Shown here in pieces: positions 5,204 to 20,730 of a DNA stretch of 21,441 nucleotides (positions are counted from its first letter, which is position 1; every line of letters begins with the position of its first letter). Location of the stretch: positions 1-21,441 of IMG/VR virus record IMGVR_UViG_3300045996_003142; one strand, given 5' to 3'. This DNA is from a virus. Under the pieces are notes generated by a model that saw nothing but the letters and a program-made list of their open reading frames with translations, did not search any database and was not told where the DNA came from. Both the position numbers and the translations under genes were made by a program.

Positions 5204-5224
5204 TGTAAGGTTCGCGACGTTACA
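5204..5224. promoter_or_regulatory. Operator-like 21-bp dyad without promoter
   Basis: TGTAAGG-TTCGCGA-CGTTACA has the half-sites and 7-bp spacing of the repeated dyad, with one changed base in the right half. No -10 follows at the usual place, so it may be an auxiliary binding site that also affects the leftward head operon. Confidence 0.55.
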
Positions 5225-5250
5225 GCCGGGACACCAGAGCGTCTTTTCAC

Positions 5251-5271
5251 CGCAAGGCTAAACACCTCACA
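5251..5271. promoter_or_regulatory. Degenerate operator copy
   Basis: CGCAAGG-CTAAACA-CCTCACA, followed after one C by TTCGTT. It keeps the spacing of the full cassettes, but both the -35 (CCGCAA) and the -10 (TTCGTT) are poor. It is probably a weakened operator/promoter copy 47 bp from the upstream dyad and 63 bp from the next. Confidence 0.4.
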
Positions 5272-5312
5272 CTTCGTTTATCGAAAAAGGCTGCTGTAGC
5301 GACGTTTTCTTG

Positions 5313-5383
5313 TTGTAAGGCTGCCGACCTTACGCTATGTTCCATGCATCGGCAGGCAAGATAGCCTCCCGGCAGATAGGAGA
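5313..5383 (+). promoter_or_regulatory. Promoter-operator-leader cassette 1
   Basis: The -35 TTGTAA (5313-5318) and -10 TATGTT (5336-5341) are 17 bp apart. The spacer is filled by the dyad TGTAAGG-CTGCCGA-CCTTACG (5314-5334). The leader starts near 5348, forms a short hairpin (AGGC 5354-5357 with GCCT 5364-5367), then has CAGATAGGAG with SD 5378-5383. It drives the genes at 5391, 5647 and 5904. Confidence 0.8.
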
Positions 5384-5390
5384 CACAAAA

Positions 5391-5645
5391 ATGTCTAGCG
5401 AAGGCAAGATCACCACCCGCGATGACGGATTCATTGACATTCGCCACGACAACCATTCCTTCGTGATCTTTCCGGAGCGCAACGGCAAGCGGTTTATGAC
5501 CGCACACAATGACGAATGGGCAAGTGTACCGGTTGGCGATTTCGCGACGCTTGGGGATGCGATCAACCGTGCAATGCAGCCTTTCCGGTTTCCGGATCAT
5601 GCCAAGCTCCGCGCCGCGCTCGCGGATATCAAGGGGAGCCGCTGA
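5391..5645 (+). CDS. Small hypothetical protein, first gene of plus-strand block
   Basis: 84 aa. The ATG at 5391 is chosen because AGGAGA lies 7 nt upstream; an upstream in-frame ATG lies in the -10 of the promoter and cannot be on the mRNA. The N-terminal half looks beta-rich (DDGFIDIRHDNHSFVIFPERNGKRF) and the C-terminal half helical (LGDAINRAMQPF). No membrane segment or known motif. It heads a three-gene unit with the genes at 5647 and 5904, under cassette 1. Function unknown. Confidence 0.75.
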   Translation: MSSEGKITTRDDGFIDIRHDNHSFVIFPERNGKRFMTAHNDEWASVPVGDFATLGDAINRAMQPFRFPDHAKLRAALADIKGSR

Positions 5646-5646
5646 T

Positions 5647-5847
5647 ATGACGACACTCCCCGAGACATTCGCTTTCAACGCGGTAACAACCGCTACTGAC
5701 GCAACAAGGCTATTACGCACACTTGGCTTCCGCCTAATTGATGCAACACAGCCAAAAAGCACATATTGGACAAACGATGCCGGGCTAGAGGCTGGCACGG
5801 AAAAACTAGCAGACGGTCAAATTAGGCTAATTATCGGACCACGCTAA
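5647..5847 (+). CDS. Small hypothetical protein
   Basis: 66 aa, starting 1 nt after the stop of the 84-aa gene (TGA-T-ATG), with GGGGAG about 9 nt upstream, so translation is probably coupled. The protein has an alpha/beta look (ATDATRLLRTLGFRLIDATQ, then LADGQIRLIIGPR). No recognised domain. Promoter-less within the cassette 1 unit. Confidence 0.68.
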   Translation: MTTLPETFAFNAVTTATDATRLLRTLGFRLIDATQPKSTYWTNDAGLEAGTEKLADGQIRLIIGPR

Positions 5848-5860
5848 ATCCTGAAACCAA

Positions 5861-5893
5861 CCGGGCGGGGCAATCCCGCCCGGCAGATAGAGG
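5861..5893 (+). promoter_or_regulatory. Intra-operon leader hairpin plus CAGATAG/SD, no promoter
   Basis: A perfect 9-bp stem, CCGGGCGGG (5861-5869) with CCCGCCCGG (5875-5883) around a GCAAT loop, is followed directly by CAGATAGAGG. It is the same hairpin-CAGATAG-SD layout as in the promoter cassettes, but no -35/-10 or dyad precedes it. This shows that the leader module works, or is inherited, independently of the promoter. Confidence 0.75.
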
Positions 5894-5903
5894 CAACAAA
5901 AGA

Positions 5904-6125
5904 ATGTGTGACCTAAAAACCGTTCGAGTCTTTCGTACCCTCGCGGGAAAAGGCCGAGTCGGCTTACTCGGAACCGCTGTGCGCGCTTCCGATGGTTGGC
6001 GCTTCGTCCCAAATGTTTTCGGACACTCACGCAGCCGTCGCGCGTGGCATTCTTGGGAAGCCTGCCTGCCACGTTGGGTTGGCTATCCGAATGCGTGCGA
6101 AACCGAAGCAGTAACGCGCGAGTGA
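5904..6125 (+). CDS. Small basic hypothetical protein
   Basis: 73 aa, basic and Trp-rich (TVRVFRTLAGKGRVGLLGTAV, then GWRFVPNVFGHSRSRRAWHSW). It starts 10 nt after the AGAGG of the preceding hairpin module. The Gly/Arg-rich beta-strand pattern could fit a small barrel, but no family is recognised. Last gene of the cassette 1 unit. Confidence 0.7.
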   Translation: MCDLKTVRVFRTLAGKGRVGLLGTAVRASDGWRFVPNVFGHSRSRRAWHSWEACLPRWVGYPNACETEAVTRE

Positions 6126-6156
6126 AAATAAAAATCGGCAGCTTTGCATTTTTCCC

Positions 6157-6224
6157 TTGCAAGGCTGCCGACCTTGCACTAGGTTATGTGCATCGGGCAA
6201 CCCCGCCCGGCAGATAGATGGAGG
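6157..6224 (+). promoter_or_regulatory. Promoter-operator-leader cassette 2
   Basis: -35 TTGCAA (6157-6162), spacer 17, -10 TAGGTT (6180-6185). The dyad TGCAAGG-CTGCCGA-CCTTGCA (6158-6178) has perfect 7-bp arms. Upstream, 6135-6148 is a near-exact inverted copy of 6158-6171 (14 positions, one C-to-T change) around a T-rich 9-nt loop. Leader hairpin CGGGC (6194-6198) with GCCCG (6205-6209), then CAGATAG and GGAGG (6220-6224). Confidence 0.8.
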
Positions 6225-6229
6225 CACCG

Positions 6230-6742
6230 ATGACCGAATATCTCCGCCAGCCCCCGGCCCCCACCGCCGCGCAACTCGCGGAAATCGAGCGGCTGGAAGC
6301 CTCGTCCAAGCGCTCTTACGAAGCGGCGGAAGAGTCCTTTCAGCGCTGCGACACAGACGGCTTCCTGTCCCAATGGGCGCTGCAATCCTCTTCCAGCGTG
6401 GACAACGCCAACATCCGCATCTTGAAGAACGGCGGATATGTTGCCGTGCGCGTGCTGTGCGATGCCGAAGGCAACATCGTATCTGATCGCATCCGCACTT
6501 TCCCGCACCCCATGTTTGAGTGGCGTTCGGTTTCGAAGTGGGATTTGGGCCGCAATGCAGAGCGGCGTTGGGTTCCCATGGGTGACAAGAGCCGCGTGCA
6601 AAAGCAACTCGGCTTGCACGAAGAAAGCCGGTACGTGCGCGGTTATGCCAAGATCACGGCACCGGCCGGAGCGCGCGGGCTTTCCGGTTGCGCCTCCGCC
6701 TATGTCGGGCATTTCCGCAGCGACACAGACGAAGAGGTTTGA
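6230..6742 (+). CDS. Conserved-looking phage hypothetical protein
   Basis: 170 aa. The ATG at 6230 is preferred over an in-frame ATG at 6218, because GGAGG (6220-6224) sits 5 nt before 6230 and overlaps the earlier codon. Residues 15-45 are a helical pair (AQLAEIERLEASSKRSYEAAEESFQRC) followed by a TDGFLSQWALQ segment; the rest is mixed alpha/beta with a VAVRVLCDAEGNIVSDR hairpin. It resembles cytoplasmic hypothetical proteins of other phages, but I know of no function. Single-gene unit between cassette 2 and a terminator. Confidence 0.85.
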   Translation: MTEYLRQPPAPTAAQLAEIERLEASSKRSYEAAEESFQRCDTDGFLSQWALQSSSSVDNANIRILKNGGYVAVRVLCDAEGNIVSDRIRTFPHPMFEWRSVSKWDLGRNAERRWVPMGDKSRVQKQLGLHEESRYVRGYAKITAPAGARGLSGCASAYVGHFRSDTDEEV

Positions 6743-6749
6743 CACCGCC

Positions 6750-6780
6750 GGGCGGGGGAAACCCCGCCCTAAATTATTTT
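6750..6780 (+). terminator. Rho-independent terminator
   Basis: The 8-bp stem GGGCGGGG (6750-6757) with CCCCGCCC (6762-6769) is closed by a GAAA tetraloop and followed by TAAATTATTTT. It lies directly after the 170-aa gene and before cassette 3. Confidence 0.8.
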
Positions 6781-6801
6781 CGGCGGGACCGCATTTTTCC
6801 C

Positions 6802-6872
6802 TTGTAAGGTCTCGCGCCTTACACTATGTTCTGTGTATCGGGAGGCAAGAAAGCCCCCGGCAGATATAGGAG
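6802..6872 (+). promoter_or_regulatory. Promoter-operator-leader cassette 3
   Basis: -35 TTGTAA (6802-6807), 17-bp spacer, -10 TATGTT (6825-6830). Perfect dyad TGTAAGG-TCTCGCG-CCTTACA (6803-6823). Leader hairpin CGGG-A-GGC (6839-6846) with GCC-CCCG (6853-6859), one bulged A, then CAGATATAGGAG (SD 6868-6872). Confidence 0.85.
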
Positions 6873-6878
6873 CCGAAA

Positions 6879-7469
6879 ATGTCCCGCCGCTTCTCTCTGA
6901 CCCGCGAAATGATGATCCCGAACGGCGCGCAGCCGGTTGCCGATCCTGAGAGCAGCGCAGTTGTCTATATCTCCCGCGACGGCAAGAACCGCCCCTGCGC
7001 AATGTTCTTCCGTGGCAAGAGCGCCAAGCCTGCCGCGAATTATGTCTATCTCTCGCAAGAGTCGCTGGAAAAGGCAGTCTGCAACTTCTTCAAGGCGGTT
7101 CGCACCAGCGAGCAGCGCAAGCACGATGCGCGCGAGGCTCGGAAGGCTTGGACGAATGACTACAAGGTTGGTGATGTGCTCGTGTCCACTTGGGGTTATG
7201 AGCAAACCAACAAGAATTTTTATGAGGTTACAGCGATTTCCGGCAAGATGCTTACCCTTCGCGAAATAGCCAGCGAGCGGGAAGAAGATATGCCGATGCA
7301 GGGCAGGGCGGTTCCGCTGCCCGGCCAGTTCACGGGTGAAGCCTTCCGCCGTCGCGCCTCTGAGCACGGAATCAAGATTGAGTCCTTCGAATACGCGCAC
7401 CGCGCCGAATTCACCAACACCCCGGCCGGGCGCATCTACAAGCCGCATCGCTGGACGGCATACGCCTAA
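6879..7469 (+). CDS. Conserved phage/plasmid hypothetical protein (WGYEQTN family)
   Basis: 196 aa, AGGAG 6 nt upstream of the ATG. The central segment YKVGDVLVSTWGYEQTNKNFYEVTAISGKMLTLREI is a recognisable signature of an unnamed family common in phages and plasmids; the reaction is unknown. A positively charged helix (RTSEQRKHDAREARKAW, about residues 75-90) precedes it. The C-terminus ends in an Arg/Tyr/Trp-rich tail (RIYKPHRWTAYA). Cytoplasmic by composition. First of two genes in this unit. Confidence 0.87.
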   Translation: MSRRFSLTREMMIPNGAQPVADPESSAVVYISRDGKNRPCAMFFRGKSAKPAANYVYLSQESLEKAVCNFFKAVRTSEQRKHDAREARKAWTNDYKVGDVLVSTWGYEQTNKNFYEVTAISGKMLTLREIASEREEDMPMQGRAVPLPGQFTGEAFRRRASEHGIKIESFEYAHRAEFTNTPAGRIYKPHRWTAYA

Positions 7470-7478
7470 GTCCCAAAG

Positions 7479-7502
7479 CCCCGCCGGAGCAATTCGGCGG
7501 GG
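7479..7502 (+). promoter_or_regulatory. Intercistronic GC hairpin
   Basis: The 8-bp stem CCCCGCCG (7479-7486) with CGGCGGGG (7495-7502) lies between the 196-aa and 63-aa genes. No T-tract follows, so it is more likely an mRNA-stability or partial-termination structure than a full terminator. CAGATAG is absent here. Confidence 0.5.
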
Positions 7503-7529
7503 TTCCACTACCGCAAAGGAAAACGGACC

Positions 7530-7721
7530 ATGACAACGCGCCTTCCGGTCAAATGCGGGCTGACAACCCTTCCTCGCCCAATGACTCGCGACCAAGCGCA
7601 AAAATGGGGTGAACGGAACATGCCTGCTGATCTTCGCCGAGCCGGATTCGTATGCGTCGTGGCTAAAACCGATCCTGAGTTGCATGGTGGAGAATGGTTC
7701 CGAGTAAACTACGGAAAATGA
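7530..7721 (+). CDS. Small hypothetical protein
   Basis: 63 aa, with AAAGGA about 9 nt before the ATG. It contains a helix-like RDQAQKWGERNMPADLRRAGF and ends GGEWFRVNYGK. The pattern (VCVVAKTDPELHGGEWFRV) suggests a small alpha/beta protein. It has no promoter of its own and is read with the 196-aa gene. No family recognised. Confidence 0.65.
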   Translation: MTTRLPVKCGLTTLPRPMTRDQAQKWGERNMPADLRRAGFVCVVAKTDPELHGGEWFRVNYGK

Positions 7722-7761
7722 GCTAGACTAAATTTTTTCGGGCGATTTTTGCATTTTTCCC

Positions 7762-7828
7762 TTGTGAGGTCGCGCGCCTTGCACTATGTTCTGTGTATCG
7801 GTCAGGGTAGCCCGACAGATAGTAAGGA
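7762..7828 (+). promoter_or_regulatory. Promoter-operator-leader cassette 4
   Basis: -35 TTGTGA (7762-7767), 17-bp spacer, -10 TATGTT (7785-7790). Dyad TGTGAGG-TCGCGCG-CCTTGCA (7763-7783). The leader hairpin differs from the common one: GGTC/GACA replaces GGGC/GGCA. The two changes allow an alternative GTC/GAC closing pair over GGG-TAG-CCC. SD AAGGA 7824-7828. Confidence 0.8.
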
Positions 7829-7835
7829 AACGAAA

Positions 7836-8117
7836 ATGACCAGCAAGACCGCCCTTCCCATCCACCACCGCGAGATGATTCGCGCCTTCGCTGCTGACTA
7901 TCCCGCCGAGCGGTGGCTTGCGGTGGCAGATGTTTCACTGGCGCGCGAACTCGGCGCGCGGCAACTTCGCAAGCCACTTCTAACTGCGAACCAGAGCCGT
8001 GATATTGCCACGGGCAACACGCTCCGCGTTCTTGCCGCCATTTGGGATGATATTGGCAATATTTTTGCCTTGCTGCCGAATGGACACCGCATCCAGTTGA
8101 TTGGTACGGGGAGATAA
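7836..8117 (+). CDS. Small hypothetical protein
   Basis: 93 aa, with AAGGA 7 nt before the ATG at 7836. The upstream in-frame ATG at 7749 precedes the promoter and is excluded. The protein is helical at the N-terminus (REMIRAFAADYPAERWLAVADVSLARELGARQL) and ends in short strands (NIFALLPNGHRIQLIG). No motif recognised. Single-gene unit. A possible stem (ACGGGG/CCCCGT) spans its stop codon, with a T-rich stretch about 16 nt later. Confidence 0.72.
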   Translation: MTSKTALPIHHREMIRAFAADYPAERWLAVADVSLARELGARQLRKPLLTANQSRDIATGNTLRVLAAIWDDIGNIFALLPNGHRIQLIGTGR

Positions 8118-8168
8118 TGCCCCGTTACACGCCGCTTTTATTTTTTCGGGCGATTTTTGCATTTTTTC

Positions 8169-8233
8169 TTGTAAGGCTGCATACCTTACACTATGTTCTG
8201 TGTATCGGGCAGGGTAGCCCGGCAGATAGGAGA
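8169..8233 (+). promoter_or_regulatory. Promoter-operator-leader cassette 5
   Basis: -35 TTGTAA (8169-8174), 17-bp spacer, -10 TATGTT (8192-8197). Perfect-arm dyad TGTAAGG-CTGCATA-CCTTACA (8170-8190). Leader hairpin CGGGC (8206-8210) with GCCCG (8217-8221), then CAGATAGGAGA (SD 8228-8233). Drives the genes at 8241 and 8449. Confidence 0.85.
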
Positions 8234-8240
8234 AGCCAAA

Positions 8241-8435
8241 ATGTCCCGCTCCGAATTGCTCAGCACCATCCGCCAGCATCGCGGCGAAATCTTCGTTGGC
8301 GTACTAGCACGAAGCGATGTAATTTACGTGAAAGCCGTCAAGTCAGATTTGCTGAGCGCTCTAAAGAATATTGGCGATGACGAATTGACCGCCAGCATAA
8401 GCTTCGGCTCTCTGTACATTGACAACGCCTCGTAA
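8241..8435 (+). CDS. Small hypothetical protein
   Basis: 64 aa, with AGGAGA 7 nt before the ATG. An upstream in-frame ATG inside the -10 is rejected. The alternation of RGEIFVGVLARSDVIYVKAVKSDLLSALK suggests two strands then a helix. It resembles very small phage proteins of unknown role. Its TAA stop is part of the next gene's ribosome binding site (TAAGGAGAGG), so the two genes are tightly coupled. Confidence 0.75.
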   Translation: MSRSELLSTIRQHRGEIFVGVLARSDVIYVKAVKSDLLSALKNIGDDELTASISFGSLYIDNAS

Positions 8436-8448
8436 GGAGAGGGACAAA

Positions 8449-8664
8449 ATGCGCACCGCTCACGAAATCTATATTTCCAACGTGCGCGAAACTCACGCGC
8501 ACTTTGACTCCAAGGAAGAGGCGGTTCGCCTCTCTTGGCTCAACTCCAATATGGAAATTGACGAACTAGACCGGCGGATTTCCGCCATCCGGCGCGAATG
8601 CGCCTTCTACCTCAACCAAGAGGTAAAACTTTATCATCTGAACCAAAAAGGGGAGCGGGGGTAA
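8449..8664 (+). CDS. Small helical hypothetical protein
   Basis: 71 aa, almost entirely helical and charged (HFDSKEEAVRLSWL, then NMEIDELDRRISAIRRECAF), probably a coiled-coil or helical hairpin. The SD AAGGAGAGG begins in the stop codon of the upstream gene. Its own stop codon lies in the loop of the terminator that follows. No function recognised. Confidence 0.76.
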   Translation: MRTAHEIYISNVRETHAHFDSKEEAVRLSWLNSNMEIDELDRRISAIRRECAFYLNQEVKLYHLNQKGERG

Positions 8665-8683
8665 AACCCCGCTTTAATTTTTT
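8654..8683 (+). terminator. Rho-independent terminator
   Basis: Stem AGCGGGG (8654-8660) with CCCCGCT (8667-8673), loop GTAAAA, followed by TTAATTTTTT. It ends the 8241-8449 unit. The stop codon of the 71-aa gene lies in the loop. Confidence 0.88.
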
Positions 8684-8705
8684 CGGCTGATTCTGCATTT
8701 TTCTG

Positions 8706-8770
8706 TTGTAAGGCCGCGCACCTTGCACTATGTTCTGTGTATCGGGCAGGGTAGCCCGGCAGATAGGAGA
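8706..8770 (+). promoter_or_regulatory. Promoter-operator-leader cassette 6
   Basis: -35 TTGTAA (8706-8711), 17-bp spacer, -10 TATGTT (8729-8734). Dyad TGTAAGG-CCGCGCA-CCTTGCA (8707-8727). Leader hairpin CGGGC (8743-8747) with GCCCG (8754-8758), then CAGATAGGAGA (SD 8765-8770). Confidence 0.85.
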
Positions 8771-8777
8771 CCGAAAA

Positions 8778-9068
8778 ATGCAAGTCGCGCAGACCATCCT
8801 TTCCCAACTCGGCGGTTCCCGCTTCGTGGCGATGACCGGTGCGAAAAACCTAGTTGCAGGACATAACAGCCTGTCAATGCATATCGGTCAGAACGCGAAG
8901 AAAGTAACCCATGTTCGAATTCGCCTTGACCCATCTGACACCTACACTGTTGAATTTGTTCGGATAAGCAAGAGCAACTTTAAGGTTCTCACCACAGTTT
9001 CCGATGTGTATTGCGACATGCTGCAAGAGATTTTCACACAGCACACCGGACTACACACCAGCCTGTAA
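8778..9068 (+). CDS. Conserved hypothetical protein (LGG-RF-AMTGAKN family)
   Basis: 96 aa, AGGAGA 7 nt before the ATG. The N-terminal signature TILSQLGGSRFVAMTGAKNLV, the central VRIRLDPSDTYTVEFVRI strand pair and the C-terminal VYCDMLQEIFTQHTGL helix match an unnamed family widespread in phages and mobile elements. No function is established to my knowledge. It starts a two-gene unit with the gene at 9127, separated by another hairpin module. Confidence 0.88.
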   Translation: MQVAQTILSQLGGSRFVAMTGAKNLVAGHNSLSMHIGQNAKKVTHVRIRLDPSDTYTVEFVRISKSNFKVLTTVSDVYCDMLQEIFTQHTGLHTSL

Positions 9069-9079
9069 GGCTCTAGGGA

Positions 9080-9118
9080 GGGGGCGTACAGCCCCCGAAC
9101 CCCGGCAGATAGGGGAGG
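9080..9118 (+). promoter_or_regulatory. Intra-operon leader hairpins with CAGATAG/SD
   Basis: A 6-bp stem GGGGGC (9080-9085) with GCCCCC (9091-9096), loop GTACA, is followed by GGCAGATAGGGGAGG. A second possible stem, CCCC (9100-9103) with GGGG (9112-9115), would bury part of the SD. No promoter or dyad precedes it. Confidence 0.7.
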
Positions 9119-9126
9119 CACCACCG

Positions 9127-9456
9127 ATGCCCGTTCCCGCTCTCAGCTACCGCCGCAGCGTCGAAAAGCTGCCTGTGCAGCGTGACTCGCTGTACGCCAA
9201 GGTTTGGCACCGTCAGGAAATCACCTATGAGATTTTGGCGGATGGTAAACCAATCGGTTATGTGTCGTGCGTTTCCTCGCACTCTGCATACCGGCGCTAT
9301 GGCAGGTTGGAATACGGGCCGAAGCGTCGCTCTAACTGGCACGTGCGCCTGTCCTATGCCGGGTGCTTCCGGCAATGGGATATTCCCTACCGTCGCGGAA
9401 GCGACGACGTTCTAGCCGAAATCCGGCAATGGGTAGAGCGCCAGACGAAAAACTAA
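9127..9456 (+). CDS. Small basic hypothetical protein
   Basis: 109 aa; the ATG at 9127 is 8 nt after AGGGGAGG, while the longer in-frame ORF would start inside the upstream gene. It is basic and aromatic-rich (AYRRYGRLEYGPKRRSNWHVRLSYAGCFRQWDIPY), with an EITYEILADGKPIGYVS strand pair before that and a C-terminal helix (DDVLAEIRQWVERQ). The composition would suit nucleic-acid contact, but no domain is recognised. Second gene of the cassette 6 unit. Confidence 0.74.
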   Translation: MPVPALSYRRSVEKLPVQRDSLYAKVWHRQEITYEILADGKPIGYVSCVSSHSAYRRYGRLEYGPKRRSNWHVRLSYAGCFRQWDIPYRRGSDDVLAEIRQWVERQTKN

Positions 9457-9482
9457 AAATTCCTCAGCCTTGCATTTTTCCC

Positions 9483-9546
9483 TTGTAAGGCTGCGCACCT
9501 TGCACTATGCTCTGTGCATCGGGCAGGGTTGCCCGGCAGATAGGAA
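9483..9546 (+). promoter_or_regulatory. Promoter-operator-leader cassette 7
   Basis: -35 TTGTAA (9483-9488), 17-bp spacer, -10 TATGCT (9506-9511). Dyad TGTAAGG-CTGCGCA-CCTTGCA (9484-9504). The upstream arm CAGCCTTGCA (9465-9474) pairs with 9484-9493 over TTTTTCCCT. The leader hairpin CGGGCA (9520-9525) with TGCCCG (9530-9535) gains an A-T pair relative to cassettes 5 and 6. SD AGGAA 9542-9546. Confidence 0.85.
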
Positions 9547-9553
9547 CGGCAAA

Positions 9554-9811
9554 ATGGCGAACATGAAATATTTCTCCGGCCATACCGAACTTGCCAACGT
9601 CTGGCATGATGGTAGCCCGTTCGCCAGCGCCAAGCACTTTAGCGGCACGCTCCCAAACGGAAATCGCGTTGTCGCTGATCGCGTGATTGAGTTTAAGCGT
9701 AATCCTTCCCTGCACAAGTGCGACGCTCGTTGCACGAATGCGCGCGGATTCAAGTGCGAATGCTCTTGCCGTGGCAAGAACCACGGAGCCGGTTCTTTTT
9801 CCTGCAACTGA
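9554..9811 (+). CDS. Cys/His-rich small protein, predicted metal-binding
   Basis: 85 aa, AGGAA 7 nt upstream of the ATG. The C-terminal third carries His54, Cys56, Cys60, Cys68, Cys70, Cys72 and His77 in the pattern HxC-x3-C-x7-CxCxC-x4-H (HKCDARCTNARGFKCECSC, then GKNHG). This is a recognisable but unnamed phage motif that probably binds zinc. The N-terminal part is polar with VVADRVIEFKRN. First of two genes in its unit. Confidence 0.8.
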   Translation: MANMKYFSGHTELANVWHDGSPFASAKHFSGTLPNGNRVVADRVIEFKRNPSLHKCDARCTNARGFKCECSCRGKNHGAGSFSCN

Positions 9812-9825
9812 ACAAACAACCGGTC

Positions 9826-9856
9826 GGGGGGCAAAAGCCTCCCGGCAGATAGGGAG
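9826..9856 (+). promoter_or_regulatory. Intra-operon leader hairpin plus CAGATAG/SD
   Basis: Stem GGGGGGC (9826-9832) with GCCTCCC (9837-9843; one G-U pair), loop AAAA, then GGCAGATAGGGAG (SD 9851-9856). There is no promoter. It couples the Cys-rich gene to the 104-aa gene. Confidence 0.72.
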
Positions 9857-9864
9857 CACTTCCG

Positions 9865-10179
9865 ATGACGAATTACGCACAGATTGAGGAACGCTCTTCC
9901 TTCCTGTTTTCCGATTTTGGCGAGAACCTTGCCCGGCAGTGGTTCGGCAATGAGACCGTGGACGCTTTGCCGAAGTTCCAGCGTGGCAAGCACAAGGGCA
10001 AGCCGAAGGGTGTTCTCGTTTGGCAAAAAGTCGTCAAGGGCGGTTGGGTACGAGAGGGCTTTGAAACCGGTTACGTTGAAAACCGCGTTGGGCACGTCAT
10101 TAAGCGCCAACTGCGCGAAATGGCAGATTTTGCGAGCGGTGAGCGCTACGGCAAGCTGATCGAGGAAAAGCGAGGATAA
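9865..10179 (+). CDS. Hypothetical protein with basic glycine-rich centre
   Basis: 104 aa, with AGGGAG 8 nt before the ATG. The central segment LPKFQRGKHKGKPKGVLVWQKVVKGGWVREG is very basic and beta-like; helices flank it (SDFGENLARQWFGNE before, VGHVIKRQLREMADFAS after). Similar short proteins occur in other phages without known role. Second gene of the cassette 7 unit. Confidence 0.8.
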   Translation: MTNYAQIEERSSFLFSDFGENLARQWFGNETVDALPKFQRGKHKGKPKGVLVWQKVVKGGWVREGFETGYVENRVGHVIKRQLREMADFASGERYGKLIEEKRG

Positions 10180-10209
10180 TTAAAAATTCGGCAGCCTTGC
10201 ATTTTTCCC

Positions 10210-10282
10210 TTGTAAGGCTGCCAGCCTGACACTAAATTTTCAGCACCGGGACGGCGGCAACCGCCCGGAAAATCAACGGAGG
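10210..10282 (+). promoter_or_regulatory. Promoter-operator-leader cassette 8 (divergent form)
   Basis: -35 TTGTAA (10210-10215), 17-bp spacer, -10 TAAATT (10233-10238). Dyad TGTAAGG-CTGCCAG-CCTGACA (10211-10231). The upstream arm 10190-10201 pairs with 10211-10222 (12 bp, one G-T) over TTTTTCCCT. The leader has a GGCGG/CCGCC hairpin (10253-10265) but lacks CAGATAG; SD GGAGG 10278-10282. Confidence 0.75.
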
Positions 10283-10287
10283 CTAAA

Positions 10288-10524
10288 ATGTCCGGCGTTT
10301 CCGTCTATTTCGCAGCCCCCGCCATCGCAGCGCGCATCGCGACCGGGCTGTTTTCGGGTGACTACAGCAACGATGATTGCGAGCAAGTTGCGCTGGCGCA
10401 TTATGGCGAGCACGACATGCGCGGCACCATCGCGCATGTCAAAGGTCGCAGAATCGTCCATGTCTCGCTGATCAACAACGAGACCGGCGAAACCGAAGCC
10501 ACCTATAATTTCAGCATGCATTGA
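10288..10524 (+). CDS. Small hypothetical protein, paralogue of the next gene
   Basis: 78 aa, with GGAGG 5 nt before the ATG. The segment AARIATGLFSGDYSNDDCEQVAL aligns with AERLFSGELTEADCKRLPL in the 81-aa protein at 10578. Both continue with a similar run of strands (GTIAHVKGRRIVHVSLINNETGE here). They look like a tandem duplication that has diverged strongly. No known domain; function unknown. Confidence 0.76.
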   Translation: MSGVSVYFAAPAIAARIATGLFSGDYSNDDCEQVALAHYGEHDMRGTIAHVKGRRIVHVSLINNETGETEATYNFSMH

Positions 10525-10534
10525 AATTTCGGGG

Positions 10535-10554
10535 CGGGGCGGATAACCGCTCCG
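10535..10554 (+). promoter_or_regulatory. Intercistronic hairpin
   Basis: The 8-bp stem CGGGGCGG (10535-10542) with CCGCTCCG (10547-10554; one G-U pair), loop ATAA, lies between the two paralogous genes. Just after it, CTTCCC (10555-10560) can pair with the GGGAGG SD (10566-10571) over TTTTC, which may limit initiation at 10578. No promoter is seen. Confidence 0.5.
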
Positions 10555-10577
10555 CTTCCCTTTTCGGGAGGCTAATC

Positions 10578-10823
10578 ATGCAAGACTTCACCACCATGGC
10601 AGCGTTTTTCAAAAATTCTAAGAACGTTGCCGAACGTCTGTTTTCCGGAGAACTCACCGAGGCGGATTGCAAGCGTCTTCCGCTTGGTGACTCTGGTTTC
10701 CACATGGAAGCACGACTTGGCAGGATGAATGCGCGGGTATATGCGCGCGTGCTGCTGATCGAAACCGCGACAGACGACGCGATTCTCGCCTATGATTATA
10801 ACCGGGACGTGATCGCAGTTTAA
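10578..10823 (+). CDS. Small hypothetical protein, paralogue of the preceding gene
   Basis: 81 aa, with GGGAGG 6 nt before the ATG. It shares the LFSG-(D/E)-x-(S/T)-x-x-DC motif and the following strand pattern with the 78-aa protein at 10288. The N-terminus adds a helical MQDFTTMAAFFKNSKNVAE segment. Read from cassette 8 with its paralogue. No function recognised. Confidence 0.77.
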   Translation: MQDFTTMAAFFKNSKNVAERLFSGELTEADCKRLPLGDSGFHMEARLGRMNARVYARVLLIETATDDAILAYDYNRDVIAV

Positions 10824-10854
10824 ATTTTTTCGAGGCGACCAACGCATTTTTCTC

Positions 10855-10927
10855 TTGCAAGGTTGGTCGCCTTACACTATGTTCTGTGTATCGGCAGAGG
10901 CAATCCCGCCTCCCAGAGATTACGGAG
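10855..10927 (+). promoter_or_regulatory. Promoter-operator-leader cassette 9
   Basis: -35 TTGCAA (10855-10860), 17-bp spacer, -10 TATGTT (10878-10883). Dyad TGCAAGG-TTGGTCG-CCTTACA (10856-10876), with a core unlike the other copies. Upstream AGGCGACCAAC (10833-10843) is the exact inverse of GTTGGTCGCCT (10862-10872), so the unusual core is mirrored. Leader hairpin GAGGC (10897-10901) with GCCTC (10908-10912); SD GGAG 10924-10927. Confidence 0.82.
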
Positions 10928-10933
10928 CCTAAA

Positions 10934-11174: not shown

Positions 11175-11240
11175 TTGACAGGCTACCGACCTGACGCTAT
11201 CTTTTTCACATCGGGCACGGCCCGGCAGATAAAACGGAGG
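11175..11240 (+). promoter_or_regulatory. Promoter-operator-leader cassette 10 (best -35)
   Basis: -35 TTGACA (11175-11180), consensus; 17-bp spacer; -10 TATCTT (11198-11203). The dyad is altered: TGACAGG-CTACCGA-CCTGACG (11176-11196). Leader hairpin CGGGC (11212-11216) with GCCCG (11220-11224), loop ACG, then CAGATA and GGAGG (11236-11240). The CTTGACA...GCTATCTT form resembles the alphaproteobacterial sigma-70 consensus. It probably drives the genes from 11247 rightward, including the tRNA-like elements. Confidence 0.85.
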
Positions 11241-13877: not shown

Positions 13878-13943
13878 TTGTAAGGCTGCACGACTTGCGG
13901 TAACTTCCATGAACCGGGCAACATCGCCCGGCAGATATGGAGG
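13878..13943 (+). promoter_or_regulatory. Promoter-operator-leader cassette 11
   Basis: -35 TTGTAA (13878-13883), 17-bp spacer, -10 TAACTT (13901-13906). Degenerate dyad TGTAAGG-CTGCACG-ACTTGCG (13879-13899). Leader hairpin CCGGGC (13914-13919) with GCCCGG (13926-13931), loop AACATC, then CAGATAT and GGAGG (13939-13943). At the expected start distance the sequence reads ACCGATAACG, where cassette 2 has ACCGATG, so no ATG is in place. Confidence 0.75.
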
Positions 13944-14843: not shown

Positions 14844-14859
14844 CGAAGGGAAAAACGCA

Positions 14860-15546: not shown

Positions 15547-15587
15547 TTGGTTTCACCCACAAATTCCAAGTTTGTGGGTGAAACCAA
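15547..15587. repeat. Perfect 17-bp inverted repeat
   Basis: TTGGTTTCACCCACAAA (15547-15563) is exactly inverted at 15571-15587 around TTCCAAG. The stem is uninterrupted and not followed by a T-tract on either strand, so it is not a standard terminator. It starts right after the stop of the exported-protein gene and ends 17 nt before the next ATG. It could be a protein-binding site, an mRNA-processing stem or a recombination site. Confidence 0.85.
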
Positions 15588-15604
15588 AACGTGAGGGAAA
15601 ATCA

Positions 15605-15997
15605 ATGAGCGACGAAGACGACAAGCCGGATTGGCAACCTCCCGAATTGTGGACGCGAGAGCATGCCGAACGAACGCTAAAGCGCTTTGTACGTGAAGAT
15701 TCCACCACATACGGGCTGCAACTACTGGAATGGATGGAATGGAAGAAAGACCCGGAAGCCTACCGCCAAGAGCAAATCGCGCGCATCATCGCCAATCGAA
15801 AAACCGCGCGAACACCGACAAGTCACGCCATCGCACACAAGCTGTTATCTCTACCAGATTTGCCGCTTGTGTTCCTGAATGACATTTTCAACGTACTCGC
15901 GGTAGATGCTGTGTTGGAACAGAATGGCGAAGTCATGGTTGACGGAGAATTTGTCAAAGGCCCAACCATCACACTGAAAGAGCATGGAGACGACTAG
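15605..15997 (+). CDS. Acidic hypothetical protein, last gene of the plus-strand block
   Basis: 130 aa; GAGGGA is 8 nt before ATG 15605. Acidic N-terminus (MSDEDDKPDW), then helices with many charged residues (ERTLKRFVREDSTTYGLQLLEWMEWKKDPEAYRQEQIARII) and a strand hairpin near the end (NGEVMVDGEFVKGPTITLKE). No known domain. It ends with TAG inside CTAG at 15994-15997, and the terminase gene on the other strand ends in the same CTAG, so the two convergent genes overlap by 3 bp. Confidence 0.78.
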   Translation: MSDEDDKPDWQPPELWTREHAERTLKRFVREDSTTYGLQLLEWMEWKKDPEAYRQEQIARIIANRKTARTPTSHAIAHKLLSLPDLPLVFLNDIFNVLAVDAVLEQNGEVMVDGEFVKGPTITLKEHGDD

Positions 15998-18078
15998 AGC
16001 ACCAGCAACCCACGCTCGCGCCGATCCGGAGTCTTGATATATCCGCTTCGGCGCTTCTCGCCCTCCGCATCAATGCGTTGCGCTGCGTACCACACATCAC
16101 GCGCACGCAGCGCCATGGAGAGCGCCACAAGTCCGTCAATGCGCGAGGTGGATTTCGCCTTGTCGAACTTCCGACCCCCGGCAGGATCTTTATTCACCTT
16201 CGCCCCAAGGGCAGAATAACGCAACACCGGATGACCACCATGCATCAAACGACGATTCAACAAAACTTCTTCCAGCGATTCGATTTGCAGGCTTGCATCC
16301 TTGAATCCTTGGCCCATCGGCTCTAGCGGAATGTCAAGATTGATTTCTTTAAGCCAACCCTTCAACACGTCAATGCGCCACCGGTCAAACCCGGTCAACA
16401 ATGGCGTATAACTCGTGTTCAATTGCGAAAGGCGCTTGGCTACATAGCCATAATCAATCGCCGTTCCTTCCGGCGCTTCCATGTATCCCTGCTTAACCCA
16501 TACGTCATACGGCACCTTATCACGCTCGCTGCGTATTTTCATGGTATCCGCCGGAGTCCAAAAGAACGGCAACACCGCGAGCGGCCCGGTTTCGCCTTCC
16601 AACTCAAACACCATGACGAACGCCGTTAAGTCGGTGCGCGCCGACAAATCGAGGCCAGCCCAACAGCGCAAGCCAACCAGATTTTCAGCGGGCCAATATC
16701 CTGCATTCTCTTCCCACACCTCGCGACTGATCGCCGTTTGAACCTGCGAGATGCGCCGATTGTGGTAGAGGTTAAGAAATGAGCCTTCCGCCGCTGGTGA
16801 TTCCTTCGCTTTGCGCGCGTAATTGCGCATTTCGTCAAGACTGCGAAACACCCCCAAGGCGGGATTCGCGTGATACCAATTCTTTTCGTCCCATGGGTCC
16901 AACCCATCGGGCAGACTGAAAAATGTCAAATGAAAAGTTGGGTCCACGATATCACCGGATTGCACCTGCAACCCGTAATCAATCAACTCACTCAGCACCG
17001 CATCGTCACTATCAGCCTGTGTACTGATGGTCAGCATTAGCGGCTGTTCCTGCGCGCCAAACGAAGTTTCCATCACATCGAACAGCGCGCGGTCAGAGCC
17101 GAATTGCGCAAGCTCATCGAAGATTACGAAGTTTGGATTTAGACCGTGCTTGCTCCGCGACTCGGCACTCAGCGCTTGATACGTGCTGTTGGTCCATGGC
17201 GTGTAAATTTTCTTAGTGGAATCCGTGATGGAAAACTGATGCGGAAAAAGCAAATCCTGTCGAATGATGGACGCCAAAGAACGAAAGATGATCGCCGCTT
17301 GATTCCGCTCATAAGCGACGCTGAAACATTGGCCGCCCCACTGCGAAACCGGCCCAATCATGTGCGACATGAGCAACCCCGCCGCAAGGCTGCTCTTCCC
17401 GTTCTTCCGCGCCAGACTCCAAACCGCTTTTTGAATCGCCCTAATCTGTTTGCCACTGCTGTTGATAAGAGTCGGTTCATACACCTCCCTTATCATTTCA
17501 ATCTGCCAATCCATCAGATTGATTAATGATCCGGCTTGCGGTCCATCCGGAACTTTCATGGTTTGGATGAACGCAACCACCTTCTGCCACACCGGCCACC
17601 TTACGCGCGGATCATGGACACGCCACAGCCCCGGCCGATCCTGCCTAGGCGCTGCCGGGAGCGCTGCACGTGGCTCCGGCTCCACCGACGCTAGGGCAGG
17701 CTCCGGCGCGGGCTGGACGCGCTGCACGGGCTGCGCAGGCTCCGGCAGAGGGTGCTTGCGCGGTCGCCCCCGAGGGCGCTTCGCTGGCGGCGTGCCGGGC
17801 AACTCGTCTGTCTGTGCCGCCCGCAACTCGGCGGCAAACCGTGTCGGGCGGCTTGGGTCTAGCCGCTCCCGCGCTTCGCGAGCGGTGCCAATCCCGACCT
17901 GTCCGGCTTGGAAATTCTCCCAACGCTGCAACGCTTCCTTCCGGTCCCGCGCTGCTTCCTCTTCCAAAATCGCGCGCTCCCGCTCCACCCGCTTGCGCGC
18001 TATCTCACCGCGCTTGTAGCGCACCGGATTACGTCGCGTGTACTTCCCCCGCACGCGCGAACTATCGTCTTCGGTCAT
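15994..18078 (-). CDS. Terminase large subunit (Terminase_1 type) with long N-terminal extension
   Basis: 694 aa, longer than the usual 500-570. It is the ATP-driven packaging motor and nuclease that feeds DNA through the portal. Walker A ARKNGKSS (about 223-230), Walker B FVIFDE (317-322) with catalytic Glu322, and a nuclease aspartate in GLDLSARTD (Asp477) are visible; a C-terminal RIDGLVALSMA segment supplies another acidic site. Residues 1-150 are an extra module: basic helix, an AT-hook-like RPRGRPRKHP at 101-110, then Pro/Glu/Ala-rich linker. The ATG is 1 nt after the stop of a small membrane-protein gene. Confidence 0.96.
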   Translation of the reverse strand: MTEDDSSRVRGKYTRRNPVRYKRGEIARKRVERERAILEEEAARDRKEALQRWENFQAGQVGIGTAREARERLDPSRPTRFAAELRAAQTDELPGTPPAKRPRGRPRKHPLPEPAQPVQRVQPAPEPALASVEPEPRAALPAAPRQDRPGLWRVHDPRVRWPVWQKVVAFIQTMKVPDGPQAGSLINLMDWQIEMIREVYEPTLINSSGKQIRAIQKAVWSLARKNGKSSLAAGLLMSHMIGPVSQWGGQCFSVAYERNQAAIIFRSLASIIRQDLLFPHQFSITDSTKKIYTPWTNSTYQALSAESRSKHGLNPNFVIFDELAQFGSDRALFDVMETSFGAQEQPLMLTISTQADSDDAVLSELIDYGLQVQSGDIVDPTFHLTFFSLPDGLDPWDEKNWYHANPALGVFRSLDEMRNYARKAKESPAAEGSFLNLYHNRRISQVQTAISREVWEENAGYWPAENLVGLRCWAGLDLSARTDLTAFVMVFELEGETGPLAVLPFFWTPADTMKIRSERDKVPYDVWVKQGYMEAPEGTAIDYGYVAKRLSQLNTSYTPLLTGFDRWRIDVLKGWLKEINLDIPLEPMGQGFKDASLQIESLEEVLLNRRLMHGGHPVLRYSALGAKVNKDPAGGRKFDKAKSTSRIDGLVALSMALRARDVWYAAQRIDAEGEKRRSGYIKTPDRRERGLLVL

Positions 18079-18226: not shown

Positions 18227-18243
18227 ATGGCTTTCCCATATTG

Positions 18244-18462
18244 CTATGTCGCTACATTTTTCCTGCGAATCCCGTCGCCATCGCACACCGTACAGAGGCG
18301 AGTCAATGTTTCAATGATATGAACGTCTTCTTTTATTTCTGTGAGTTCCGAAGTCTCGCATGTGAGAACCGGAGTTTGTATCTTCTCGCGCGGAATCGGG
18401 CGACAAACCTTGAACGCTACATATCCGTTTCCGTTGCACACAGCACAAATTTCCGTTTGCAT
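18244..18462 (-). CDS. Small Cys-rich protein with two CxxCxGxG zinc-finger-like motifs
   Basis: 72 aa, GGAG 9 nt before the ATG. Cys6-AV-Cys9-NGNG and Cys57-TV-Cys60-DGDG are DnaJ-type CxxCxGxG motifs that together could hold one zinc ion in a ribbon. The 45 residues between them (with Cys20 and Cys35) include an acidic helix (SELTEIKEDVHIIETLTRL). Such mini zinc ribbons are common in phages, often without known partner. It lies in the leftward terminase unit. Confidence 0.74.
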   Translation of the reverse strand: MQTEICAVCNGNGYVAFKVCRPIPREKIQTPVLTCETSELTEIKEDVHIIETLTRLCTVCDGDGIRRKNVAT

Positions 18463-18492
18463 TGCTCATGCTCCATTGGCGCTTGCCAATTG

Positions 18493-18876
18493 TTAACGTT
18501 CAGTTTTCACCGCTCCCGCTCCACCTTCCAGCGACAAAGGTTCCCCGTGCTCTGAAAGAATTGTATCGCCGGTTGTCGGTGGATTTTGCTGGTTCAGTGC
18601 ATTCAGCATGAGCGTTTGCAATTCAGTCGGTATTGTCACCCGAGATGAACGCCTTGTCTGCGCATTCACCACCGCAATGCGCTGCGTTTTAAGTGCGTCA
18701 GTTAACGCCTGTCGTGTAACTGCTGGATATGTCGCGCGTAACGCGTCTTCCGATTCGTCTAATTTGGTTTTTTGCAAAAGTTCAACCTTAGATTCCGACC
18801 ATCGTTGAGTGATGTTCTGAATTGCTGCGCGAAATGCACGAGCCAAGCCCGGCTTTGAAGTTTGATCATCCGGCAT
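18493..18876 (-). CDS. Helical basic protein, first gene of the terminase unit (possible small terminase)
   Basis: 127 aa from ATG 18876, chosen because GGTGGAG is 8 nt upstream; the longer frame to 19122 would run into the tail-spike gene. It has helices at about 12-95 (LARAFRAAIQNITQRWSESKVELLQKTKLDESEDAL, then VTRQALTDALKTQRIAVV), an Arg-rich turn (QTRRSSRVTIPTEL) and a flexible C-terminus. No helix-turn-helix is evident. Its place ahead of the large terminase makes a small-terminase role possible, but sequence evidence is lacking. Confidence 0.76.
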   Translation of the reverse strand: MPDDQTSKPGLARAFRAAIQNITQRWSESKVELLQKTKLDESEDALRATYPAVTRQALTDALKTQRIAVVNAQTRRSSRVTIPTELQTLMLNALNQQNPPTTGDTILSEHGEPLSLEGGAGAVKTER

Positions 18877-18971
18877 TGCGTGTGCTCCACCTTTGGCAAT
18901 CAAGCCTCTTCGCTTGAAAGTTTCGCCCGCCAAGAGCATAACCCGATGCGGCCCGTAGGGGAACACTAACG
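18877..18971. other. Divergent intergenic region between terminase unit and tail spike
   Basis: 95 bp separate the leftward 127-aa gene from the rightward tail spike. The repeated dyad operator is absent here. TTGAAA (18911-18916) followed after 18 bp by ATAACC could be a weak rightward promoter; I do not consider it supported. This unit therefore appears to be regulated differently from the small-gene block. Confidence 0.4.
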
Positions 18972-20642
18972 ATGGCGCAACAAATCGTTCAGCTTGGCAC
19001 CGGCCCTGGCACCCCCGGTGCGGACTCCCAATACGAAGCGCACCGCAAGCACAAAGAAAATACCGCAGAGCTTTATGGGCTGATGCTGAGCGGCGCAACG
19101 GGTTCCGTGTTCCGCACGCCACTAAATTCCGGTTTCACCGTTGACCCAAACGGCTCTGCGGATTCCACCGCCGGACTCAATGCCTTCTGTGCCCTTCTCG
19201 CCTCGACAGGCGATCCCGGATTTCTCCCCCCTGGCACCTATCGCACCACCGCCGAAGTCGTGTACCCGAACGGCTACCTTTATTTTATTGGTGCTGGTCC
19301 GGCGCGCTGTGTCATCAAACCTGATGCAAACACATACAACGGCGTTCGCATCAATGCAGGAACCGGCACCGGTCTAGGCGGATCGCTCCGCCCGCAAGGC
19401 ATTGTTGGAGGTTTCTGTGTGCGCGGCCCAAATGCCTCGCCTCCACAAAACGGAAAAGCTGGATTCGTGCTTGACGCCACGACACAATGCGTGGTGCGCG
19501 ACGTTCTTGTTGAGGGATTTGATATCGGCTTTGACCAAATTAATAATTGCTTCAACAGCAATTACGAAAACATCTTCACGTCGCGAAATGTCGGGACCGT
19601 CAACGTTGGATACAACGCGCGCACCGACAATCAGAATGGTTGTGATATCTGCTTCTACAACGCACAGCTAACCGGCAAGCTTGCTGCGATGTGCTTTAGC
19701 GGGACGGGTGGCGGATATCGCGTGTTCGGTGGCTCTTTCGGCACCTCACAAACCGCCGTGCTGGATAAGCTTGGCGTTATTACCATGGGATGGAATTATA
19801 TCAGTGACGTAGAAGCCGGTGGACTCGGCTCCATGCTGTTCACCGGATTGCATATCGAAGGCTGGCGCGGTCAACATGCGTTTCGCGTGTATGGTAGCGT
19901 GACATTCGGCGTTCAGGGAACCGGCTTCAATCCAAGCGCCAGCGATGTTCCGGCTTCCGGCATCGTACACCACAGCAATGCGCAAGGCTCTTCGCAAACT
20001 TGGCTGCACAATGACATTGGCAACGGATACTTTTCGAGCAACGCGGTTGCCACCATCACCGGTGAAAACGACGATTTCCAAATGTTGGAACTCGGTTGGG
20101 CATCCTCTTCGATGGCATCCGTTGGTGGCACTTCGCGCAATCGCTCTTGGATGAAATCGCTTCTGCGCACGTCGAACACCTTCCAGGGTGGCGACCCCAA
20201 ATGGATGCGCGGGCTTTCCTACTACAGCGATGCCTACCCCGTATTGCTGCTTGGCCGCATGCACGTGAAACCGGATGCGGGCGCGGGAACATGGGCGCAA
20301 TCGTTTGATGGCACGAATTGGGATGTTTTCGGCAGACCATTCGCGGTTTCCGAGGGCGGCACCAATCATAACGTTGAACCATGGTACGCCCCCGGCCGTA
20401 TCACCATGACCAGTGCCAGTGCAAACACCGTCACCGTGCGCACCGATGCAACCGCAACCTGTCCGGTAGGAACGAAGGTGCAAGTCGTGCAAGCTGGCAG
20501 CGGCAACACGACAATTACCCCAAGCGGCGGCGTGACAATTAATCGTCGCGTCGGTTTGCGCCTCGCCGGGCAACACGCCGTCGCATTTATCGAAAAAGTC
20601 GGCACCAACGCATGGATTGCGTATGGTGATTTGATCGCGTGA
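18972..20642 (+). CDS. Tail spike / receptor-binding protein, pectate-lyase-like beta-helix
   Basis: 556 aa, AGGGG 10 nt before the ATG. The N-terminal about 40 residues (QIVQLGTGPGTPGADSQYEA, then HKENTAELYGLM) resemble the adaptor that docks fibres on the virion. From about residue 60 (DPNGSADSTAGLNAFCALLASTG, LPPGTYRTTAEV) the pattern is that of pectate-lyase-like right-handed beta-helices, continuing to about 400. The last 80 residues (ITMTSASANTVTVRTDAT, VGTKVQVVQAGSGNTTI, GVTINRRVGLRLAGQ) are a C-terminal module common in phage fibres. It probably binds or depolymerises host surface polysaccharide; catalytic residues cannot be assigned. Confidence 0.9.
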   Translation: MAQQIVQLGTGPGTPGADSQYEAHRKHKENTAELYGLMLSGATGSVFRTPLNSGFTVDPNGSADSTAGLNAFCALLASTGDPGFLPPGTYRTTAEVVYPNGYLYFIGAGPARCVIKPDANTYNGVRINAGTGTGLGGSLRPQGIVGGFCVRGPNASPPQNGKAGFVLDATTQCVVRDVLVEGFDIGFDQINNCFNSNYENIFTSRNVGTVNVGYNARTDNQNGCDICFYNAQLTGKLAAMCFSGTGGGYRVFGGSFGTSQTAVLDKLGVITMGWNYISDVEAGGLGSMLFTGLHIEGWRGQHAFRVYGSVTFGVQGTGFNPSASDVPASGIVHHSNAQGSSQTWLHNDIGNGYFSSNAVATITGENDDFQMLELGWASSSMASVGGTSRNRSWMKSLLRTSNTFQGGDPKWMRGLSYYSDAYPVLLLGRMHVKPDAGAGTWAQSFDGTNWDVFGRPFAVSEGGTNHNVEPWYAPGRITMTSASANTVTVRTDATATCPVGTKVQVVQAGSGNTTITPSGGVTINRRVGLRLAGQHAVAFIEKVGTNAWIAYGDLIA

Positions 20643-20682
20643 GTATTTATAGGTAAGATTTTTGTGAATCACGAATTTAGGT

Positions 20683-20730
20683 TTGACAGACTGCCGACCT
20701 TGCGCTATGTTATTTTCATAAGCAAGGGAG
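20683..20730 (+). promoter_or_regulatory. Promoter-operator cassette 12, short leader
   Basis: -35 TTGACA (20683-20688), 17-bp spacer, -10 TATGTT (20706-20711). Degenerate dyad TGACAGA-CTGCCGA-CCTTGCG (20684-20704), with the core identical to cassettes 1 and 2. The leader is short and lacks the hairpin and CAGATAG, going straight to SD AAGGGAG (20724-20730). It is a copy of the regulon promoter 6.8 kb from its nearest relative. Confidence 0.8.

Follow-up and report, generated by a model that had tools for sequence, protein, structure and literature searches.

The window, by which we mean the whole 21,441-nucleotide stretch analysed (IMG/VR record IMGVR_UViG_3300045996_003142, positions 1-21,441), is virus DNA from an incomplete phage fragment. 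It carries twelve plus-strand promoters with small genes behind them, defined by a -35 of TTGNNN and a -10 of TANNNT, and in all twelve the hexamers are 17 bp apart, a sigma-70-like spacing. The -35s read TTGYAA or TTGACA and the -10s TAnnnT, with a T5 tract just 5' of the -35. Across the spacer lies a dyad, TGYAAGG-N7-CCTTRCA, whose first position is base 2 of the -35 and whose last lies one base 5' of the -10. It has at most one mismatch at nine of the twelve promoters and is degenerate at three; two further dyads, at 5204 and 5251, stand without a promoter, leaving 12 of 14 inside promoters.

5204..5224, strand not assigned: dyad (by the dyad pattern) without promoter hexamers, 6/7 pairs
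5251..5271, strand not assigned: degenerate dyad, 4/7 pairs, matrix score 8.3; probably a decayed promoter unit
5313..5341, +: promoter with spacer dyad 6/7, upstream of gene 5391-5645
6157..6185, +: promoter with spacer dyad 7/7, upstream of gene 6230-6742
6802..6830, +: promoter with spacer dyad 7/7, upstream of gene 6879-7469
7762..7790, +: promoter with spacer dyad 5/7, upstream of gene 7836-8117
8169..8197, +: promoter with spacer dyad 7/7, upstream of gene 8241-8435
8706..8734, +: promoter with spacer dyad 6/7, upstream of gene 8778-9068 (phrog_9437)
9483..9511, +: promoter with spacer dyad 6/7, upstream of gene 9554-9811
10210..10238, +: promoter with spacer dyad 6/7, upstream of gene 10288-10524
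10855..10883, +: promoter with spacer dyad 6/7, upstream of gene 10934-11146
11175..11203, +: family promoter, -35 TTGACA, degenerate dyad 5/7, upstream of gene 11247-11669
13878..13906, +: family promoter, degenerate dyad 4/7
20683..20711, +: family promoter, -35 TTGACA, dyad mostly lost (3/7), without CCGGCAGATA on its 3' side, upstream of gene 20739-20933

A weight matrix derived from the twelve promoters and scanned over the window scores them at 34.5-46.1 bits, against at most 8.3 elsewhere, and each still reaches 26.8-44.6 in a leave-one-out matrix. The promoters, their positions, strand and 17-bp spacing, and the placement of the dyad relative to both hexamers, are as an earlier sequence-only reading had described them, and the matrix sets the family far above the rest of the window. 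The same reading had the dyad filling all twelve spacers, which holds at nine but not at 11175, 13878 and 20683 (5/7, 4/7 and 3/7 pairs); of its two extra dyads without a promoter, that at 5204 is good (6/7) but that at 5251 is weak (4/7). With up to three mismatches allowed, the dyad pattern has 16 matches in the window where 2.3 are expected, a number reached by none of 100 shuffles. Over the twelve sites 68 of 84 dyad cells are paired, against at most 38% for other symmetry centres of these 29-mers, and between the hexamers the columns of AAGG and CCTT come close to the hexamers themselves in conservation. Four of the dyads were flagged by a terminator scan, but CTATGTT and no U run follows them and their arms coincide with the promoter, which rules them out as RNA terminators.

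The conserved unit (about 110 bp) runs well past the interval from -35 to -10. Its order is upstream arm, T5 tract, promoter with dyad, 5'-UTR hairpin, CCGGCAGATA, Shine-Dalgarno (SD) and small gene; the operator-in-promoter description was correct as far as it went, but lacked the upstream arm, the UTR hairpin and CCGGCAGATA. The upstream arm is complementary to the 5' half of the dyad and the loop that follows it. CCGGCAGATA, with which GGAG was noted, is followed by a variable SD, and three of its copies have no promoter.

6135..6148, +: upstream arm TCGGCAGCTTTGCA, pairs with 6158-6171 (14 bp including one T-G)
6783..6790, +: upstream arm GCGGGACC, pairs with GGTCTCGC at 6808-6815
9465..9474, +: upstream arm CAGCCTTGCA, pairs with 9484-9493
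10190..10201, +: upstream arm GGCAGCCTTGCA, pairs with 10211-10222
10834..10843, +: upstream arm GGCGACCAAC, perfect complement of GTTGGTCGCC at 10862-10871
5369..5378, +: start-associated element CCGGCAGATA, before the SD
Starts 5880, 6207, 6857, 8219, 8756, 9102, 9533, 9842, 11222 and 13928: other exact CCGGCAGATA copies
Start 7812: CCGGCAGATA copy with one mismatch
8205..8221, +: 5'-UTR hairpin TCGGGC-agggta-GCCCGG, an example of the hairpin found in nearly all units
6750..6769, +: intrinsic-terminator-like hairpin, end of the preceding unit
8652..8675, +: intrinsic-terminator-like hairpin, end of the preceding unit

The same layout occurs in the Agrobacterium phages Milano, OLIVR4 and 7-7-1 (Schmittlotzvirus), where an unrelated dyad, TACAAATNATTTGTA, similar to 434-type operators, fills a 17-bp spacer and abuts the -10. 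The promoter form there is TTGACN-NN-TACAAATNATTTGTA-TAnnnT, present in 7-9 copies (Milano 9, OLIVR4 8, 7-7-1 7), nearly always directly 5' of small genes with a conserved leader. Apart from the dyad sequence, these phages differ from the window in having the SD within the leader hairpin, no complementary upstream arm and another virion type. In Milano and OLIVR4, as in the window, one of the spacer-dyad promoters is followed by a phrog_9437 gene. Among the scanned phage stretches, a de novo rule (TTGNNN-N17-TANNNT occurring four or more times, with a common palindrome in the spacer) returned only the window (5, by the strict rule), Milano (9), OLIVR4 (8) and 7-7-1 (7); no comparable family was present in the scanned Rhodobacter, Rhizobium, Sinorhizobium, Ochrobactrum, Brevundimonas, Dinoroseobacter, Luteibacter and Morganella phage stretches. 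Three IMG/VR contigs carry the Agrobacterium-type dyad promoter, as a single copy each with uninformative neighbours. The 7-7-1 paper gives five promoters and no dyad (PMC3517404), and the TACAAATNATTTGTA set includes two of the promoters predicted there; in the literature searched, the layout common to these alphaproteobacterial phages appears not to have been described. The sequence itself shows the promoter repeats, the dyad and where it lies, the hairpin/CCGGCAGATA module and the independent recurrence of the layout, and the same design on unrelated sequences in the window phage, the Agrobacterium phages and, loosely, mycobacteriophages suggests repeated independent invention.

We interpret the twelve promoters as a set of host-sigma promoters that is probably repressed coordinately, a dimeric protein across the spacer blocking each of them. 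The matrix and symmetry statistics argue for this, as do the conservation of AAGG and CCTT, not needed for sigma factor contacts, and the persistence of the 5204 dyad without promoter hexamers. So do the same geometry with the unrelated TACAAATNATTTGTA dyad, together with a Cro/CI-type HTH protein, Milano_085 in Milano, encoded in the block with the TACAAATNATTTGTA promoters in all three Agrobacterium phages, and the shared placement of phrog_9437. Since all spacers have the optimal 17 bp, no activator should be needed for the promoters to function. Published precedents also repress: in acr-aca operons, phage HTH proteins bind inverted repeats within core promoters and repress (PMC9410906), and phage promoters with an operator engineered into their 17-bp spacer are tightly repressed (PMC6127294). 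The proposal first made from the sequence, of small genes whose promoters each contain an operator, is supported, with the dyad degenerate at three of twelve, and so is the steric-block option.

Some observations count against a repressed set. No DNA-binding or HTH protein was recognised among the proteins of the window, itself an incomplete fragment, and the same holds there for a MerR-family regulator, an Aca-like protein or aca HTH gene, and a Cro/CI-type HTH gene; three of the twelve dyads are degenerate; and the Cro/CI-type protein, a candidate repressor for TACAAATNATTTGTA, is tied to it by proximity only, its own gene having no dyad just upstream. The operator-binding regulator is probably encoded in the missing part of the phage. 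The promoter pattern had no other copies in the viral and bacterial genome contigs searched, and a relaxed pattern gave two isolated matches only, in unrelated context; the leader 16-mer gave seven single matches, all unrelated. Terminase, capsid and one small protein had only distant matches among viral contigs, none with the unit, and terminase had no match among genome contigs. Rfam gave no match at the gathering threshold, and phiC31-type operators brought up nothing in the literature searched.

We envision a plus-strand small-gene block of a tailed phage that would be driven by a repeated cassette comprising a host sigma-70-type promoter, an operator for one dimeric protein, a 5' stem-loop and a translation-start element. 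Once free host RNA polymerase encounters the phage DNA, presumably early, the promoters would fire together, and the 5' stem-loop would stabilise the mRNA; as the operator-binding protein accumulates, it would sit between -35 and -10, keep RNA polymerase off and silence the set jointly. This binding, repression, timing and stabilisation are inferred. Phages have many small genes that are presumed to target the host, and how such genes are turned on and off jointly is known for few phages. An operator in each spacer, if true, would let one protein directly control scattered genes with no long operon, and the layout seems to be a recurring phage way to fire many small genes jointly and then shut them off jointly.

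We consider it unlikely that the dyad instead binds an activator, of phage or host origin, which would turn the set on, for example as middle genes. The -35s are often TTGTAA or TTGCAA, not TTGACA, and there are imperfect -10s such as TATGTT, making intrinsic strength uncertain; yet 17 bp is the optimal spacing, RNA polymerase would usually be shut out by a dimer sitting between the hexamers, and like-placed operators repress in both published precedents. Quite unlikely is a single promoter cassette copied many times, its dyad accidental (some host sigma-factor preference) and binding nothing. The loop is partly conserved, with CTGCCGA exact at three sites, as recent duplication predicts, but the arms are retained where loops and flanks differ, the 5204 dyad survives without a promoter, and unrelated sequences adopt the same geometry in Schmittlotzvirus phages and, more loosely, in cluster K mycobacteriophages.

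It is very unlikely that nucleic-acid structure is what matters, with hairpins in DNA or read-through RNA controlling the unit junctions as the upstream arm pairs with the 5' half and loop of the dyad, or the two halves of the dyad with each other. Over 8 units the arms do pair better with their own loops than with those of other units (sum -99.1 versus -71.4 kcal/mol, permutation fraction 0.0006), including a perfect 10-bp pairing at 10856, in quite different sequence, and one of 14 bp at 6158. However, pairing is weak at 8170 and 8707 and was not seen at 5314, 11176, 13879 and 20684, the Schmittlotzvirus set lacks the arm, and the arm may be no more than a hairpin at the 3' end of the gene before it, or a product of templated mutation. 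We give the slimmest chance to a chain of linked switches in place of twelve independent operators, with two mutually exclusive inverted repeats per unit that both use the dyad 5' half: the protein-bound dyad would compete with the covarying upstream-arm hairpin, coupling read-through from the preceding gene to initiation at the next promoter. Activation of the MerR type, which the sequence-only reading had allowed, is unlikely because all twelve spacers have the optimal 17 bp, and we reject it on this length, as MerR-type promoters have over-long spacers of 19-20 bp.

The closest described system is ESAS/SAS of cluster K mycobacteriophages (Pope et al. 2011, PMC3203893; Adephagia, PMC11373665). 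Like the window, it has repeated intergenic sigma-70/SigA-like promoters with an inverted repeat and spacers of 17-18 bp (17 in the window), a start-associated element 3' of the promoter (GGGATAGGAGCCC there; CCGGCAGATA plus GGAG here) and a served subset of small non-structural genes, and some SAS lack an ESAS, as three CCGGCAGATA copies here lack a promoter. It differs in its conserved 13-bp GGGATAGGAGCCC at the start codon, of which the window shares only the GATAGGAG core in some copies, and in its imperfect inverted repeat of 15-17 bp (in Adephagia one arm lies over the -35, the other from -10 to about +10), whereas the window has 7-bp arms of unrelated sequence within the spacer and adds the 5'-UTR hairpin and complementary upstream arm. 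Since Milano, OLIVR4 and 7-7-1 are culturable and encode a candidate repressor, the function of an ESAS-type element would be directly testable there.

The acr-aca operons share with the window an inverted repeat in the core promoter of phage small genes, but each is a single autoregulated operon rather than a dispersed set. The 17-bp dyads of cluster O (Corndog) have many dispersed copies and 7-bp arms, but no tie to promoters, about one third lying within genes (PMC4351075). The stoperator comparison drawn in the sequence-only reading captures the dispersed set but is otherwise loose: cluster A stoperators (mycobacteriophage L5 type) are sites at which one regulator binds, scattered over the phage genome, but they are asymmetric, orientated, often distant from promoters (PMC4351075) and act in transcription units, whereas the window's dyads are symmetric and 12 of 14 lie in promoters. 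The acr-aca operons, ESAS/SAS and the Agrobacterium phage spacer-dyad promoters are nearer parallels.

Each of the twelve plus-strand promoters proposed in the sequence-only reading was found in place (-35s, by which the units are named here, at 5313, 6157, 6802, 7762, 8169, 8706, 9483, 10210, 10855, 11175, 13878 and 20683), and a position matrix leaves a gap of >25 bits between these twelve and the remainder of the window. The dyad across their 17-bp spacers, TGYAAGG-N7-CCTTRCA, occurs far in excess of shuffles. Across the twelve 29-mers there is a single strong symmetry centre, with 68 of 84 cells paired (every other centre ≤38%), and the near-invariant columns comprise TTTTT directly 5' of the -35, TTG..AGG, CCTT.C.C, TA..TT and a downstream ATCGG. 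Since AAGG and CCTT, lying between the hexamers, are not contacts of the sigma factor, they argue for an operator. The claim that the dyad fills all twelve spacers holds for most units, but at 11175, 13878 and 20683 the promoter is kept with the dyad lost in part or for the most part; conversely, the site at 5204 keeps the dyad with the promoter absent, as had been proposed. A perfect dyad at 21215–21235 (TGTTAGG-N7-CCTAACA, two changes from the consensus), within a minus-strand reading frame, may be a chance occurrence.

The unit extends past the promoter into a leader hairpin (TCGGGC-loop-GCCCGG and variants), the start-associated element CCGGCAGATA, a Shine-Dalgarno sequence and the start codon, which is 71–79 nt away from the -35 except in the final unit, 20683, where the distance is 56 nt. 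CCGGCAGATA is present at gene starts in 11 exact copies and one with a single mismatch; because three exact copies (5880, 9102 and 9842) precede genes without a window promoter, it reads as a separate leader or translation-level element. On the other side of the promoter, an upstream arm varies in sequence by unit and is complementary to part of the dyad in the same unit, namely the 5' half plus the N7 loop; when arms were shuffled among eight units, an equally good pairing sum arose in 0.06% of permutations.

Upstream-arm pairing in the clearest units, by dyad start (plus strand)
6158: pairing of 14 bp
10211: pairing of 12 bp
9484: pairing of 10 bp
10856: pairing of 10 bp, the paired sequence being entirely different

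The arm is strongest mainly at units whose preceding gene has no ordinary terminator, and terminator-like hairpins close some preceding units. In Rhodobacter phage RcSpartan, three promoters (36067, 36856 and 40475) carry TTGAC within the loop of a 13–16 bp inverted repeat, whose arms differ in sequence among the three and keep their complementarity, reminiscent of this outer repeat.

Binding, direction of control, timing and the identity of the protein are inferred. Bound to the dyad, a protein dimer would lie over the DNA between the -35 and the -10, and strong, probably early, promoters would be repressed together. Such coordinated repression is favoured because published precedents of the same geometry repress, and because the spacer length speaks against MerR-type activation, the other option of the sequence-only reading. 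Aca proteins repress through inverted repeats within core promoters (PMC9410906), and repression was also obtained with EilR operators engineered into the 17-bp spacers of phage promoters, where a 5' stem-loop was also thought to raise output (PMC6127294); the window's leader hairpin might act likewise. No helix-turn-helix (HTH) protein was found among the proteins of the window fragment.

The closest described system is that of cluster K mycobacteriophages, in which a start-associated sequence (SAS) is preceded in about half of cases by an inverted repeat, the ESAS (PMC3203893). In the cluster K phage Adephagia, the ESAS was later recognised as SigA-like promoters with 17–18 bp spacers, possibly repressed via the inverted repeat (PMC11373665). 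The layout is analogous; however, in the seven Adephagia units inspected the arms begin at TTGACA and run across the -10 past the start site, and because both sequences and arm placement differ, we do not assign the window to this system.

The window promoter pattern had zero exact matches in IMG/VR contigs and the genome collection. The evidence comes from one fragment, for which close relatives were not found. Phages sharing the phrog_9437 gene, which follows unit 8706, led to Agrobacterium phage Milano, where searching for dyads that recur brought up a family of the form TTGACN-NN-TACAAATNATTTGTA-TAnnnT, unrelated in sequence to the window's dyad. All of its copies have a 17-bp spacer, and each stands directly 5' of a small gene whose leader is conserved. 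The Agrobacterium phages OLIVR4 and 7-7-1 show the same arrangement; both the anatomy and its recurrence are direct observations. A rule applied de novo, which required a promoter with 17-bp spacing, a palindrome in the spacer and a family of similar spacers, recovered families only in the window, Milano, OLIVR4 and 7-7-1, with none in the other phage stretches scanned or in shuffles; being strict (5 of 12 window units and 0 Adephagia units recovered), it undercounts. Two of the five predicted promoters listed for 7-7-1, in a paper that found no evidence of temporal regulation (PMC3517404), coincide with the spacer-dyad set. All three phages encode a Cro/CI-type HTH protein in the same block, linked to their dyad by proximity. 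Judged only from open-licence papers, the spacer-dyad layout in alphaproteobacterial phages appears to be without earlier description. The conserved leader of the Agrobacterium phages (e.g. GGTATCTC...GGAGATACC) would place the Shine-Dalgarno sequence in a hairpin stem. Three IMG/VR contigs from a different type of phage each contain TTGACTGC-TACAAATNATTTGTATA once, with conserved sequence upstream of it.

At 21,441 bases, the window spans the entire virus record and is probably a fragment of a genome. The terminase, portal and capsid proteins, all HK97-like, are encoded on its minus strand, and its plus strand carries about two dozen small genes at ~5.3–14 kb. Because several of these have relatives in phages of Agrobacterium, Sinorhizobium, Rhizobium, Rhodobacter and Brevundimonas, an alphaproteobacterial host is plausible; relatives also occur in large Vibrio and Aeromonas phages. 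At 5094–18078, a 10-kb opposite-strand small-gene block sits between the terminase gene and those for protease, capsid and portal. Two tRNA-like sequences lie between the small genes, at 11676–11756 and 12136–12204; ARAGORN detected neither, and their matches to Rfam tRNA-Sec were weak, at 27.4 and 21.7 bits, respectively, which is under the gathering score. The former has an anticodon-like loop, TTCTAGC, whose CTA would read amber UAG.
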